A stretch of 64,000 nt of DNA from an uncultured Acidobacteriota bacterium (GTDB lineage: Bacteria; Acidobacteriota; Vicinamibacteria; Fen-336), in contig CADEEV010000001.1 of the NCBI GenBank assembly GCA_902826455.1, forward strand, positions 1 to 64,000. The letters run 5' to 3'. Below are positions 28,100-32,531 of the stretch, piece by piece. The translations under genes and the position numbers were made by a program. Under the pieces are notes generated by a model, which was not told where the DNA came from, did no database searches, and worked only from the letters and a program-made list of their open reading frames with translations. The stretch's first letter is position 1, and each line of letters starts with the position of its first letter.

Positions 28100-28173
28100 G
28101 GGCCTGTAGTTCAGATGGTCAGAACAGCCGGCTCATAACCGGACAGTCGAAGGTTCGAGTCCTTCCAGGCCCA
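28100..28173 (+). tRNA. tRNA with CAU anticodon, probably tRNA-Ile2 (lysidine type)
   Basis: A 74-base cloverleaf: acceptor GGGCCTG paired with CAGGCCC, D stem GTTC/GAAC, anticodon loop CTCATAA (anticodon CAT), T stem GAAGG/CCTTC with loop TTCGAGT, discriminator A; CCA is not encoded. The anticodon stem has four pairs plus a G-A mismatch at 27-43. It is not an initiator tRNA, since the acceptor begins with a normal G-C pair and the anticodon stem lacks three G-C pairs in a row. The G-G-R-C-C-T acceptor start and C-G-G-C-T-C-A-T-A-A-C-C-G context resemble tRNA-Ile2 of other bacteria more than elongator tRNA-Met, but elongator Met is possible. Confidence 0.85.
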
Positions 28174-29007
28174 CTAGCGCTCGACGCGCGCGAACACTCC
28201 GCCCGAGACCCATTCCCGGAACCAGCCGAACAACGACTCGGCCGAAGGCGCGCGCTTCCCACGTTTGCCGGCGGCCTCGATCGCCGCGCCCAGGGTCAGG
28301 CCTGCCGCGAGATCGGTGAGCAGCGCGTAGGCTTCGCGGGTGAGGGAGAGGCGCCAGACCTTGAAGTCGCGCCGGTAGATGGCGACCCACTCGCCCTTCA
28401 GCCGTGCCTTCGGGTGGTCGTGATCGTCTTCGCGGACCGTCTGGAGATAGGCGTTCACCGGGTAGCGGAACGCCAGCAGCCGGAAGGCCGGGATCGTGCG
28501 CAGTCGGGCGTTCTCCCAGGCGTCGGGCGGCACTGCCGCGATCTGCGCCTCGCTCAGCGGCGGCACCTCCTCCGCGTCGAAGACCTGCGCCATCGCGCAC
28601 TCGAGCCGCGCGAGGTCGTGGCAGAAGTCGCGCCGCTTCAGATCCGCGGCGCGTCCGACGAACTCCGGCAGGTGGTCGCCGAGCCGGTTGAGGCTGTAGC
28701 TGCGCGAGGGATGGGCCTGCACGTAGTCGCGCACGAGGTGGAAGAAGGCGTGATCGCCGAGGAAGTGCTTGAGCGCCTCGTAGTCGTTGGCGAGGGCGTC
28801 GTGCATCCGGAGCAGGTACATCGAGTGATAGATGCCGACGCGCTCGGCGGAGGTGAGGGCTTCGGTGGGCAGGATCACGTCGCCGACCCGCTCGCGCGGA
28901 ACCTCGGCCGCAGCACCGGGGGCTGCGAGCGCCTCGTCGATCTCTCCCGGGTGCACGACCACGGCCTGCATCCAGCGCTGGAGGTTCTCGAGGCCGGGAC
29001 TGCTCAT
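28174..29007 (-). CDS. DUF2063 (HvfC/BufC-like) RiPP maturation partner
   Basis: The 277-residue protein has the DUF2063 signature in its N-terminal half, T-S-A-E-R-V-G-I-Y-H-S-M-Y-L-L-R (about 51-66), followed by L-A-N-D-Y-E-A-L-K-H-F-L-G-D and H-P-S-R-S-Y-S-L-N. In MNIO gene clusters (HvfC, BufC, TglI-like partners) this protein escorts the precursor to the iron enzyme. Its ATG overlaps the stop of the DUF692 gene (ATGA), which fits a fixed complex between the two. The stop codon directly abuts the 3' end of the tRNA gene on the other strand. The function is inferred from family and context. Confidence 0.8.
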   Translation of the reverse strand: MSSPGLENLQRWMQAVVVHPGEIDEALAAPGAAAEVPRERVGDVILPTEALTSAERVGIYHSMYLLRMHDALANDYEALKHFLGDHAFFHLVRDYVQAHPSRSYSLNRLGDHLPEFVGRAADLKRRDFCHDLARLECAMAQVFDAEEVPPLSEAQIAAVPPDAWENARLRTIPAFRLLAFRYPVNAYLQTVREDDHDHPKARLKGEWVAIYRRDFKVWRLSLTREAYALLTDLAAGLTLGAAIEAAGKRGKRAPSAESLFGWFREWVSGGVFARVER

Positions 29008-29864
29008 CGGACGGCGGCGCTCAGGGTCGCTTCCGTCGCGAGGGCGTCCCGGAACGGCTTCGCCTTCATCGCTTCGGCATGGACCACGTCGAGCTCGGGG
29101 ACGTTCTCGTCCCACTCGTAGAGCGTCGAGACGAGACCCGTGCGCGCGATCGAGCGGCGGTAGAGCTCCCACACGGGATCGACGGCGTGGTCGCTGTGGG
29201 TGTCGAGGATGTGGGTTCCCTTGTTCGTGTGGCCGGCGAGGTGGTACTGCACCACGCGGTCGGCGGGGATCGCGTCGACGTAGAGGGCCGGGTCGAAGCG
29301 ATGGTTGAACGAGCTCACGTAGACGTTGTTCACGTCGAGGAGCAGGCCGATGTCGGCGTCTTCCGCGAGGCGCGCCAGGAACTCCCACTCCGGCATCTGG
29401 GAGGCGACGAACTCGACGTAGGACGACGGGTTCTCGAGGACGAGGGGCCGCTCGAGGAAGTCCGACACGGCCCGCGCGCGCTCGACGGTGTGGCGCAGGG
29501 CCTCTTCGGTGTAGGGCATCGGCAGGAGATCGTGGGTGTTGCGGCCGAGGATGCCCGTCCAGCACAGGTGGTCGGACACCCAGCGCGCGTTCGTGCGCTT
29601 CGCGAGATCCTTCAGCTTGCCGAGATGGGTCAAGTCGATCGGGTCCTTGTTCCCGATCCCGAGGGACACGCCGTGGAGCGCCACCGGGTAGCGCTCGGCG
29701 ATCTGGTCGAGCACCCACATGGGCCGTCCGCCCGTGTCCATGAAGTTCTCGGAGAGCACCTCGAACCAGTCGATCGCGGGCTTGCGCCCGAGGATCTCGC
29801 CGAAATGGACGGTCCGAAGACCGATTCCGATGCCGAGGTCCTCGAAGCCCCAACGGTTGCTCAT
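29004..29864 (-). CDS. DUF692 multinuclear non-heme iron oxidase (MNIO), RiPP-modifying
   Basis: A 286-residue TIM-barrel protein of the DUF692/MNIO family (relatives MbnB, TglH, BufB, HvfB). Candidate metal ligands in the conserved places are H64 (A-L-H-G-V), H99 (S-D-H-L-C-W), E144 (L-E-N-P-S-S), D177 (L-L-D-V-N-N), H188, H208 and H212 (Q-Y-H-L-A-G-H), D221/H223 (D-T-H-S-D-H) and E250 (Y-E-W-D-E-N). These enzymes use two or three iron ions and O2 to rework cysteines or neighbouring backbone of a precursor peptide, for example into oxazolone-thioamide or thiooxazole groups. GGAGAG lies eight bases before the ATG. It follows the Cys-rich precursor gene across a 73-base gap with a hairpin, and is coupled to the DUF2063 gene. 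Confidence 0.9.
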   Translation of the reverse strand: MSNRWGFEDLGIGIGLRTVHFGEILGRKPAIDWFEVLSENFMDTGGRPMWVLDQIAERYPVALHGVSLGIGNKDPIDLTHLGKLKDLAKRTNARWVSDHLCWTGILGRNTHDLLPMPYTEEALRHTVERARAVSDFLERPLVLENPSSYVEFVASQMPEWEFLARLAEDADIGLLLDVNNVYVSSFNHRFDPALYVDAIPADRVVQYHLAGHTNKGTHILDTHSDHAVDPVWELYRRSIARTGLVSTLYEWDENVPELDVVHAEAMKAKPFRDALATEATLSAAVR

Positions 29865-29898
29865 GCGGCGCGCGCTCTCCAGGGTTCAGAAATGAAGA

Positions 29899-29925
29899 GG
29901 GACCACGGCGTTGAGCCGTGGTCCC
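29899..29925 (-). terminator. Hairpin between RiPP precursor and MNIO genes (partial terminator/attenuator)
   Basis: A perfect 11-bp inverted repeat, GGGACCACGGC and GCCGTGGTCCC, around a 5-base loop. It starts 12 bases after the precursor stop. On the minus strand it is followed by TCTTCATTTCT, a broken U tract, so it may act as a leaky terminator or a 3' stabiliser that keeps precursor mRNA in excess over enzyme mRNA. Confidence 0.65.
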
Positions 29926-29937
29926 GGTGAGGAGTCG

Positions 29938-30303
29938 TTACTTCTTCGGTTCCTTCTTCACGGGAACGGCGCAACCACCCTTGCCCTTGCAAGAGTTCTT
30001 GCCGGCGCAACCGTTGTCGCCGGACTTGCAGCCGCCCTGGCCCTTGCACTCGTTGTGGCCCTTGCAGTCGTGCTTCGAGGCCGTGGCGCAGCCACCCTTG
30101 CCCTTACACGAGTTCTTGCCCGCGCAGCCGCCGTCGCCCGTCTTGCAGCCGCCCGTGCCCTTGCAACCGTTGAGGCCCGCGCAGGCGTGCTTGTCGGCGC
30201 TGGCGCCCGCGGCCTTCTTCTCTTCACCGGCGAAGGCCTTGGTGCCGGCCGCCATGCCGGCCACGACCGCGCCCATGATCTTCGTGAATTCTCTACGATC
30301 CAT
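29938..30303 (-). CDS. Cys-rich Tat-exported RiPP precursor, putative metallophore (MNIO substrate)
   Basis: A 121-residue peptide. Residues 1-25 form a twin-arginine signal: D-R3-R4-E-F-T-K, a hydrophobic core at 9-20 and an A-F-A cleavage motif at 23-25. The mature part has two tandem 39-residue repeats (about 39-77 and 78-116), each holding six cysteines in C-x-G-x-N-x-C-K-G-x-G-G-C-K-x-G-D-x-G-C-A-G-K-N-S-C units. The twelve Cys (41, 47, 53, 60, 66, 72, 80, 86, 92, 99, 105, 111) are spaced 6-6-7-6-6 within each repeat. The rest is nearly all Gly, Lys, Asn, Ser. AAGGAG lies nine bases before the ATG. With the MNIO and DUF2063 genes downstream it should be a modified, exported copper- or other metal-binding peptide. 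It is not of the DUF2282 bufferin or EGKCG HvfA sequence type by eye. Confidence 0.8.
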   Translation of the reverse strand: MDRREFTKIMGAVVAGMAAGTKAFAGEEKKAAGASADKHACAGLNGCKGTGGCKTGDGGCAGKNSCKGKGGCATASKHDCKGHNECKGQGGCKSGDNGCAGKNSCKGKGGCAVPVKKEPKK

Positions 30304-30652
30304 GTTCTTCTTCTCCTTAGTGACGAACGGAAGTGACGACCAACTTCCCGCCGACCAAGGCTCCCCGAAGAAGCCGCAGAGGGCCGACGGGTGCGTCGCA
30401 GCGACACCGTGACGACACGACAACGAGGCTACGAGCGCTCCCCGTCGGGTGGATGTCGGCTACGTGAGCGTCAACGTCTCGATGGACAAGCCTATTCCAG
30501 CAAGCCCAGTGCCACTAGTAAATTCACGTCACGGGCGGGATTTGCGCAGGGCGCCTGTGCCGCAGCCCGCGCCCGGATGCCCCGAGTCGGGCAATCGCCT
30601 TGCCCCATTTCGGGCAGGCGAGGCGTGTCCCGCGATGCTAGAATTCCGACCG
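30304..30652. promoter_or_regulatory. Divergent region between the RiPP operon and the zinc-ribbon gene
   Basis: A 349-base stretch without a supported gene. It holds the sigma-54-like promoter listed separately, a strong AAGGAG ribosome site (30311-30316, minus) for the precursor, and on the plus strand TAGAAT (30639-30644, in the context TGCTAGAAT, an extended -10) eight bases before the zinc-ribbon ATG. The remaining bases show no repeat that I could recognise. Confidence 0.5.
30499..30514 (-). promoter_or_regulatory. Putative sigma-54 (-24/-12) promoter of the RiPP operon
   Basis: Read on the minus strand the sequence is TGGCAC, five bases (TGGGC), then TTGCT: an exact match to the TGGCAC-N5-TTGC(A/T) core. 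It points towards the precursor gene and would give a leader of roughly 185 bases. Ten fixed positions would be expected by chance about 0.1 times in this window on both strands, so placement here is suggestive, not proof. Confidence 0.5.
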
Positions 30653-31800: not shown

Positions 31801-32502
31801 CTAGGCGCCCCAGCCGACGAAGTTGATCATCCGGCCGGCGCCCCTGCCGTCGCGACGGTAGGAATGGTAGAGGTCCGGCGAGCAGTGCGTGCACTCCTCG
31901 ACGCGATGGATGTTCTCGGGGCGCAGCCCGAGCCGCGCGAGCTGCAGCGCGTTCGCGAGGGGCACGTCGAGGTGCGCCTTGCCGCGTGGCCCGGGGGCGA
32001 AGACGAGGTCCGCATCGGAGCCGAACGCCGGCCGGAGCTCGTCGCCGACCTCGTAGCAGCAGGGCCCGATCGCGGGACCGAGTCCGGCGAGGAGCTCCTC
32101 CGGAGGCGAGCCCGCGGCCACCAGGGCGAGCACGGCCTGTTCGGCGATACCCAGAGAAGTGCCACGCCAACCCGCATGGACGGCCACGGCTTGCCGGCGC
32201 TTCGGATCCACGAGCAGGATCGGCAGGCAATCGGCGGTCTCGACGCCCGCGATGTCGCCGGCGCGCCGGACCATGCCCGCGTCCGCCTCGGGGACGCCCT
32301 CCCAGGGCGCCGTCTCGACGCGTCGCCCGTGGACCTGGGTCAGGAGCAGGAGGCGGCCTTCCCCCGCGAGCGCCGCGCCGACGCGGGCGCGACTCGCGTC
32401 GCGGGTTTCGTGGCCGGCGGGGCCCGTGCGTCTTTCGAAGCCGTGGACCAGGCCTGGAATCGCGGCAAGGGCAGGAAGCGTCGCGACGCGGAGCGCGGTC
32501 AT
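31801..32502 (-). CDS. pgeF: Multicopper-type purine nucleoside phosphorylase / PgeF (YfiH, LACC1 family)
   Basis: The 233-residue protein matches the YfiH/LACC1 family, with the zinc ligands H58 (Q-V-H-G), C92 (A-D-C-L-P) and H109 (V-H-A-G-W-R-G-T), and conserved G-P-A-I-G-P-C-C-Y-E-V-G and C-T-H-C ending in G-R-M-I-N-F-V. Family members cleave purine nucleosides and some remove wrongly inserted residues from peptidoglycan precursors, which would tie it to the dcw genes further on. The ATG at 32502 is preferred to a GTG five codons upstream, because that GTG sits in the probable divergent -10 region. Confidence 0.88.
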   Translation of the reverse strand: MTALRVATLPALAAIPGLVHGFERRTGPAGHETRDASRARVGAALAGEGRLLLLTQVHGRRVETAPWEGVPEADAGMVRRAGDIAGVETADCLPILLVDPKRRQAVAVHAGWRGTSLGIAEQAVLALVAAGSPPEELLAGLGPAIGPCCYEVGDELRPAFGSDADLVFAPGPRGKAHLDVPLANALQLARLGLRPENIHRVEECTHCSPDLYHSYRRDGRGAGRMINFVGWGA

Positions 32503-32531
32503 CCCTTCATGATCCACGCTAGACTCGCGCC
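32503..32531 (+). promoter_or_regulatory. Short-leader promoter region between pgeF and the AcpS-like gene
   Basis: TAGACT at 32520-32525 lies six bases before the GTG of the AcpS-like gene; the complementary TCTAGC could serve pgeF. There is no room for a ribosome site before the GTG. Confidence 0.35.

Follow-up and report, generated by a model that had tools for sequence, protein, structure and literature searches.

Which family of modified peptides does a locus that joins a cysteine-rich exported precursor to an iron-dependent enzyme represent, and by which route would its product leave the cytoplasm? The question is raised by a 64,000-nucleotide stretch from an uncultured Acidobacteriota bacterium of the Vicinamibacteria (assembly GCA_902826455.1, contig CADEEV010000001.1, positions 1 to 64,000), here called the window, in which the genes of a precursor, an MNIO (DUF692) enzyme and a DUF2063 protein succeed one another on the minus strand from position 30303 to 28174, as read from the open reading frames (ORFs) and their translations (Table 1). 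An earlier reading of this DNA, made from the letters alone (the sequence-only reading), had proposed an operon on the bufferin plan for a metal-binding ribosomally synthesized and post-translationally modified peptide (RiPP). Our analysis identified a 12-Cys bufferin operon of the BufA2 type, a precursor family and a cysteine pattern that are already known; the part not found in print is the export route, since the precursor carries a leader of the twin-arginine translocation (Tat) type that is conserved among its closest relatives.

A BufA2-type operon with a 12-Cys precursor

The three-gene operon is real. Of 16 stretches retrieved from related genomes, each around a precursor of this kind, 13 kept the order of 12-Cys precursor, MNIO and DUF2063 protein, which argues that the arrangement is not due to chance. 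Among the other three stretches, one ends with its contig and two (loci L051 and L054; L numbers denote loci throughout) show no BufB-like ORF. Behind the leader MDRREFTKIMGAVVAGMAAGTKAFA and a short linker, the precursor carries two 6-Cys blocks of 32 residues whose starts lie 39 residues apart, with Cys at positions 41, 47, 53, 60, 66 and 72 and again at 80, 86, 92, 99, 105 and 111, that is, with a spacing of 6-6-7-6-6, then 8, then 6-6-7-6-6. The sequence-only reading, accurate about the operon, the length of the precursor and this regular spacing, went too far in describing the mature part as almost only Gly, Lys, Cys, Asn and Ser: of the 95 residues that follow position 26, these five account for 67% and Ala for another 12%.

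Profile searches placed the precursor above the curated NCBIfam cut-off for BufA2 (NF050166) and the enzyme above that for BufB (NF050167), and all 25 related precursors in our alignment A2 matched the BufA2 model at E<=10. On these scores the window system is a BufA2 (Buf2, 12-Cys) bufferin operon of a known family, which agrees with the earlier proposal of a bufferin-type metallo-RiPP made by an MNIO and a DUF2063 partner. That proposal had also set the precursor apart from the DUF2282 and EGKCG signatures, and both are indeed absent, the former from the Pfam scan (where DUF7640 alone matched, below its cut-off) and the latter from the precursor sequence; a known signature is nevertheless present, that of BufA2, and the search outcome counts against the sequence-only reading in that the precursor falls in a family already described. 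A novel precursor family was rejected on the same score, and membership in the Buf1 bufferins was rejected because no DUF2282 match was found. With HvfA/oxazolin and fontiphorin (EGKCG, Lys-Cys group) the window system shares the MNIO, the DUF2063 partner and the presumed relation to copper, but it lacks the EGKCG repeats, and its enzyme and partner remain below the HvfB (239.1 against 360 bits) and HvfC (47.6 against 142 bits) cut-offs, for which reasons this membership was rejected as well.

Twelve Cys residues are no novelty either. Buf2 bufferins, encoded in bufABC operons, are described as having 6 Cys in 90% of cases and a duplicated set of 12 in the rest, about 10% (PMC12452194, cited here and below for the parts of the paper covered). 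The precursor fits this Buf2 or Buf_6/12Cys family as well as the Cys-Lys group of PMC13097082 (likewise cited for the parts covered), in which precursors with Cys-Lys motifs are grouped and NACKG was tested among the common motifs. Like the captophorins of that group, it has Cys-Lys motifs (NSCKG/NECKG) and belongs with an MNIO and a PME1-type partner; the captophorin genome survey was centred on Pseudomonadota, unlike the host of the window. The closest named system is Buf2 of Caulobacter vibrioides (NF050166/NF050167), with which the window system shares the cut-offs passed, the bufA-bufB-bufC order, the DUF2063 partner with a RiPP recognition element (RRE) and the 6-Cys unit. It departs from BufA2/Buf2 in its Tat-type leader in place of a Sec-type one, in a Glu rather than an Asp beside the proposed catalytic Asp, and in the lack of a DoxX gene, none being found in the operon, as noted earlier, or elsewhere on the window contig, while the 6 DoxX matches of the genome all lie on other contigs.

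Table 1. Features of the bufferin operon in the window (positions are those of the window).
Feature	Position	Strand	Basis
bufA2-type precursor gene, 121 aa, 12 Cys	29938..30303	-	NF050166.1 Cu_RiPP_BufA2, 65.2 bits (cut-off 60)
Predicted Tat-type signal peptide, residues 1-25	30229..30303	-	Prediction from sequence, RRxF conservation
First 6-Cys block, residues 41-72	30088..30183	-	Sequence
Second 6-Cys block, residues 80-111	29971..30066	-	26/32 positions identical to first block
Shine-Dalgarno sequence AAGGAG upstream of the bufA ATG	30313..30318	-	Sequence
Intergenic hairpin between precursor and MNIO genes	29899..29925	-	Fold z -3.39 for the gap
bufB, MNIO (DUF692) maturase, 286 aa	29004..29864	-	NF050167.1 MNIO_BufB, 341.3 bits (cut-off 310); PF05114, 342.1 bits
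bufC, DUF2063 + RRE-type partner (PME-type 1), 277 aa	28174..29007	-	PF09836, 67.7 bits; structure model and Foldseek

Maturation enzyme and partner protein

Many His, Asp and Glu residues are invariant in our BufB alignment (A1). At the site beside the proposed catalytic Asp, Lys-Cys enzymes are described as having Phe (FonB-Phe250) and Cys-Lys enzymes as having Asp (PMC13097082). Located through an alignment with 3bww, not with the FonB sequence itself, this site holds Glu253 in the window enzyme, directly after the proposed catalytic Asp252; an acidic residue at this position and the lack of a second Arg are points in common with the captophorins (PMC13097082). The residue was acidic in 17 of the 19 enzymes of the Tat-type 12-Cys group (E in 15, D in 2, A in the other 2), D in 12/12 of the Bradyrhizobium-type Sec Buf2 group, and A in 24/25 enzymes of the Planctomycete (CRGLN) type described below.

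The AlphaFold2 model of the partner protein has a predicted local distance difference test (pLDDT) score of 95.8, and Foldseek matched it to NGO1945 (3dee, E 6e-5) and to chain A in two TglHI entries, 8hci and 8hi7 (E 4e-7); we take this chain as TglI because chain D is the DUF692 protein. DUF2063 was matched in 33 of the 34 downstream partner proteins scanned, a set made up of 33 of the 56 next ORFs and the window's own partner. The lone protein without it is probably that of L079, whose next ORF differs from the rest (17% identity), with TPR matches in one member.

Leader of the precursor and its relatives

The window leader begins with the n-region MDRREFTK, in which RRxF occupies residues 3-6 (R-R-E-F-T-K), and continues with a weakly hydrophobic core, Lys22 and an A-F-A cleavage site. 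Tat signals are reported to be marked by S-R-R-x-F-L-K, by lower hydrophobicity and by basic residues in the c-region (PMC6708511, in the sections covered), and the leader has the features of a Tat substrate in its RRxF n-region, weak h-region and AxA site. In the taxonomic order of the window the motif was present in each of the 16 12-Cys-type precursors with a readable N-terminus, namely the window's and 15 from 13 genomes, while a further locus, in genome G009, is cut by a contig end and stands outside this count. Fourteen of these 16 precursors precede BufB, the others being those of L051 and L054. TatC was found in the window genome and in 13/13 relatives with such precursors. The label of a Tat-exported peptide, given by the sequence-only reading, therefore holds at the level of the conserved RRxF leader.

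Distribution of the RRxF leaders

Beyond the order, a query with the BufB alignment gave at least 576 related loci, of which the 80 that ranked highest for similarity to the window enzyme were taken, a choice by which the frequencies given here do not describe bufferins as a whole. Among these 80, there were 33 loci with RRxF leaders, 24 with signal-like leaders lacking RRxF, 22 with no leader-bearing precursor, and one, L077, with no recognisable precursor in the same-strand frames before its MNIO; the nearest named relatives of the window genome were metagenome-assembled genomes of Acidobacteria, Vicinamibacteria and Thermoanaerobaculia. Another 13 loci, 11 with RRxF (counting the window) and 2 lacking it, brought the set to 93 enzymes; their tree, built by a quick method with SH-aLRT as its sole support measure, comprises 44 rows labelled Tat-type, 26 Sec-type, 22 none and 1 unknown. 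The Tat label is the RRxF pattern itself, by which its agreement in 47/47 RRxF leaders is true by definition and is not evidence; the Sec label means a signal-like leader without RRxF, and the 22 rows without signal carry a default label, assigned by sequence reading where no precursor with a leader was chosen at the locus. The labels of L077 and L109 were set by hand, as were those of L137, moved from lipoprotein to Sec, and L101, moved from Tat to Tat-lipoprotein. Under these definitions RRxF was present in 44/70 signal-bearing precursors, and the Tat label changed 5 times on the tree against a mean of 30.9 after shuffling, or 3 times when signal-bearing rows alone were considered.

The Tat-type rows form two groups. 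The first, of 19 rows, contains the Acidobacteriota precursors of BufA2 type, which have 12 Cys except in one row with 6. The second contains 25 rows with a precursor of the CRGLN type, the named ones belonging to Planctomycetota, Verrucomicrobiota and Hydrogenedentota. In this second group (L078-L106; alignment A3, from which L092 was omitted as a near copy of L090) RRxF is invariant in 25/25 aligned precursors, takes the form S-R-R-D-F-[SG]-K in four, and is combined with a lipobox in 8 rows. Lipoboxes in signal peptides are a point of likeness between some relatives of the window and the lipoprotein RiPPs known as DAG-RiPPs (PMC12636315, in the parts covered), from which the eight relatives differ by adding RRxF to the lipobox. 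CRGLN-type precursors also carry a C-terminal W..R..E segment and stand beside BufB, and the group member L078 remained, at 26 bits, far below the 60 required for BufA2. The Tat signal models TIGR01409, TIGR02811 and PF10399 matched 8, 10 and 10 of the 25 leaders, weakly, at E<=10, with best E values of 0.0048, 0.00017 and 0.00096, respectively.

Bacteroidota and Actinomycetota MNIOs close to BufB stand beside larger Cys-rich precursors that were read as having no signal peptide (L110, L113, L114, L115, L116, L117, L122, L123, L131, L132, L136 and others). At L087, L104 and L112 an ORF of about 500 aa ends in a Cys-rich CxGL segment, and at L118 and L127 such a segment follows a long ORF; the long ORFs of these five loci may be ferritin-like.

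Tat or Sec

Several features separate the RRxF leaders from an ordinary Sec signal with a positive n-region. Shuffled leaders contained RRxF by chance in 0.9% of cases. Counting from the first Arg as position 0, Lys or Arg occupied position +5 in 36/47 RRxF leaders, Phe at +3 being there by selection. The maximal Kyte-Doolittle hydropathy of the leader was lower with RRxF than in 23 leaders without it (1.68 against 2.04, p 2e-7, for rows that are not independent; L055, L056, L059, L060 and L062 were omitted), and the RR pair was absent from 22 of these 23. From the motif we infer export by Tat rather than by Sec, and we consider Tat use likely.

A number of observations weigh against this conclusion. 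The window leader gave no match to the Tat signal models at E<=10 and has Asp, not Ser or Thr, before its RR, and among 25 aligned 12-Cys precursors (19 with RRxF) the models gave 1, 3 and 1 matches with best E values of 0.095-0.14. None of eight other bufferin-like precursors from the same genomes has RRxF (one each in L055-L060 and two in L062); one of the eight, a BufA2-like precursor of 13 Cys encoded on contig 19 in the window genome, has RR without Phe (MKRRDAGVL). Near the first group, the tree places eight rows without RRxF and with 7-15 Cys, from Planctomycetota, Myxococcota and Acidobacteriota (L067, L073, L074, L075, L076, L103, L107 and L134), five of whose leaders show a lipobox-like pattern; at the specificity site their enzymes have A, Q, Q and D, the other four being missed by the pattern. 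Besides, the unmodified precursor is predicted to be unstructured (AlphaFold2 mean pLDDT 45), and Tat cargo with an unstructured tail was rejected in one study that a Tat review cites (PMC6708511).

A rival view is that the operon encodes an ordinary Sec-exported BufA2 bufferin, with an RRxF that is mere positive charge in the n-region and with nothing unlike the published bufferins, which are described as having Sec signals, or lipoprotein signals in about 16% of Buf2 (PMC12452194). The missing Tat-model match and the relatives with other leaders, one of which has RR but no Phe (L075), are consistent with it. However, net charge would suffice for a Sec n-region, and the near absence of RR pairs from leaders without RRxF is not what such a view predicts; nor does it account for a pair and a Phe kept in every 12-Cys precursor of the order and in every aligned member of the sister family, or for the weaker hydrophobic core. 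We regard the Sec explanation as unlikely. The RR leaders that lack Phe, in L075 (NRRVV) and in L055 and L062a (SRRLL, SRRIL), could use Tat as well.

The conservation of RRxF might also reflect recognition by BufC and BufB and have nothing to do with Tat, an explanation that draws on preliminary data from a Buf1 model in which the signal peptide is part of BufB-BufC recognition (PMC12452194). Yet BufB stands beside leaders without RRxF in all eight relatives listed above, three of which (L067, L073 and L076) were among the 34 loci whose partner proteins were scanned, with DUF2063 matched in 33, and no single leader position was strictly needed in FonA (PMC13097082). The conserved motif, moreover, fits the Tat consensus and not an arbitrary one, and we find the recognition explanation quite improbable.

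Because close relatives with a similar core use leaders without RRxF, Tat would be open to the mature peptide without being required by it. The reported tolerance of Tat for hydrophilic unstructured segments of 100-120 residues (PMC6708511) is in keeping with the length of the mature peptide, about 95 residues, and with its predicted lack of structure before modification. The Tat-exported copper proteins CopA and CueO offer a partial parallel in their twin-arginine signal and periplasmic copper handling (PMC10304878, in the parts covered), although these multicopper oxidases are at least partly folded when they are exported, unlike the short modified peptide proposed here. Neither Tat nor twin-arginine appears in the main text of PMC12452194 or in the covered parts of PMC12636315; the main text of PMC13097082 contains neither signal peptide nor Tat, and PMC12538549 has no word that starts with Tat. 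No paper joining MNIO or DUF692 with Tat or twin-arginine was found in the literature searched, which includes few subscription papers, and no Tat-exported bufferin is reported in the passages checked among the matches listed for bufferin together with twin-arginine. Judged on the sequences compared, the Tat-type leader is a well-supported new variant that extends across several phyla.

Copper and the proposed mechanism

We consider it likely that the window holds a BufA2 operon whose thiooxazole peptide is exported by Tat and buffers copper outside the membrane. In this scheme the cytoplasmic steps would begin with BufC (DUF2063-RRE), which would present the precursor to BufB; this iron enzyme would then convert several Cys residues, at C-K and C-A sites, into 5-thiooxazoles. 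The modified, positively charged, Gly- and Lys-rich peptide of about 95 residues would then leave through the Tat translocon, its signal being cleaved after AFA, and would chelate copper outside the cytoplasmic membrane, thus protecting the cell from excess copper. The thiooxazole chemistry, the copper binding and the protection are argued here by analogy with relatives: bufferins and captophorins have been linked to copper (PMC12452194, PMC13097082), and the gig operon, a bufferin operon according to PMC12452194, is copper-induced (PMC10304878).

The peptide might instead be directed at another metal or at thiol stress (Zn, Au or Hg); gold-induced bufferin operons and MerC fusions have been noted (PMC12452194). 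Nothing identified in the neighbourhood indicates copper with certainty, and no copper regulator site was identified upstream of bufA, a result that tells against the copper part of our scheme. The characterised products of MNIO-PME1 pairs bind copper, though, and Caulobacter Buf2 is described, on preliminary evidence, as resembling Buf1 in its role (PMC12452194), which leaves a metal other than copper with a low probability.

A bolder version of the copper-buffering scheme would make Tat a checkpoint in Acidobacteriota, Planctomycetota and Verrucomicrobiota, with the DUF2063-RRE partner behaving like a Tat maturation chaperone towards the signal peptide, so that export would be limited to peptide with its thiooxazoles in place, possibly with cytoplasmic copper already loaded. 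If this were true, the peptide would be a one-way copper exporter and not just a periplasmic sponge. The version, which at its boldest limits Tat to folded peptide loaded with copper, is weakened by the close relatives with a similar core that manage without RRxF, and we hold it to be rather doubtful.

Intergenic hairpin and genomic context

The gap between bufA and bufB in the window has 73 bases and contains a perfect stem of 11 bp with a loop of 5 nt, followed by TCTTCATTTC. This is a common property of such gaps: from 67 gaps placed, with the bufB start taken as the nearest Met, the 57 of 40-400 bases were used, of which 45 had a fold more stable than that of their shuffled versions (z<-2; median -3.04), and 24 contained a perfect stem of at least 7, against 3.0 expected. 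At the same threshold, the controls gave 1/57 inside bufB and 5/57 upstream of bufA. The hairpin occurs with both Tat and Sec types, and the words hairpin, stem-loop, terminator and attenuation are absent from the main text of PMC12452194. On the simplest reading it is probably a leaky terminator that would raise the ratio of precursor to enzyme, and in the window it would probably lower the expression of bufBC relative to the precursor.

When the 300 bases upstream of bufA were compared across 19 such regions, most of the shared motifs were GC-rich 8-mers. GCTAGAAT is common to six of these regions (L039, L040, L041, L042, L046 and L047) and CTTGACAG to five (L039, L040, L041, L044 and L046); the two resemble -10 and -35 promoter parts, perhaps those of the divergent gene. 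A lone GGAAGT-N8-ACTTCC repeat lies 45 bases upstream of the window start codon.

Within the operon, bufB and bufC overlap by ATGA, and its end overlaps a convergent tRNA-Met gene (28100-28174) by one base, while the divergent gene on its other side encodes a CT398-like zinc-ribbon protein. A protein of the Cu-oxidase_4 family (PF02578, 178 bits) is encoded nearby, at 31804-32517 on the minus strand; the family is now regarded as a peptidoglycan-editing factor, and the protein is probably unrelated to copper.

The genome of the window contains further bufferin-like genes. A second bufB-bufC pair on contig 56 (L062, 3824-6093), with two precursors of 6 and 7 Cys downstream, scored 363.7 bits for BufB and 65.4 and 59.5 bits for the precursors against the cut-off of 60. 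Contigs 19 and 18 encode one further bufferin-like precursor each, at 46.6 and 27 bits, respectively (L059, 4661-5062; L060, 4817-5182), with no BufB-like ORF in the 10-kb stretches around them, and a third, distant MNIO is encoded on contig 13.

Implications for bufferin-type peptides

It has been stated as an open point that a mechanism must exist against premature Sec export of the precursor prior to its modification (PMC12452194). The Tat signal suggests itself as a simple way to delay export until modification, and the conserved Tat-type leaders of many bufferin-type precursors suggest one answer to this problem. As far as the literature searched goes, these peptides would be the first Tat-routed MNIO-modified RiPPs. 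The survey also brought to light an unnamed precursor family of the Planctomycete type with BufB partners, and the conserved hairpin between bufA and bufB may set the ratio of substrate to enzyme in these systems.

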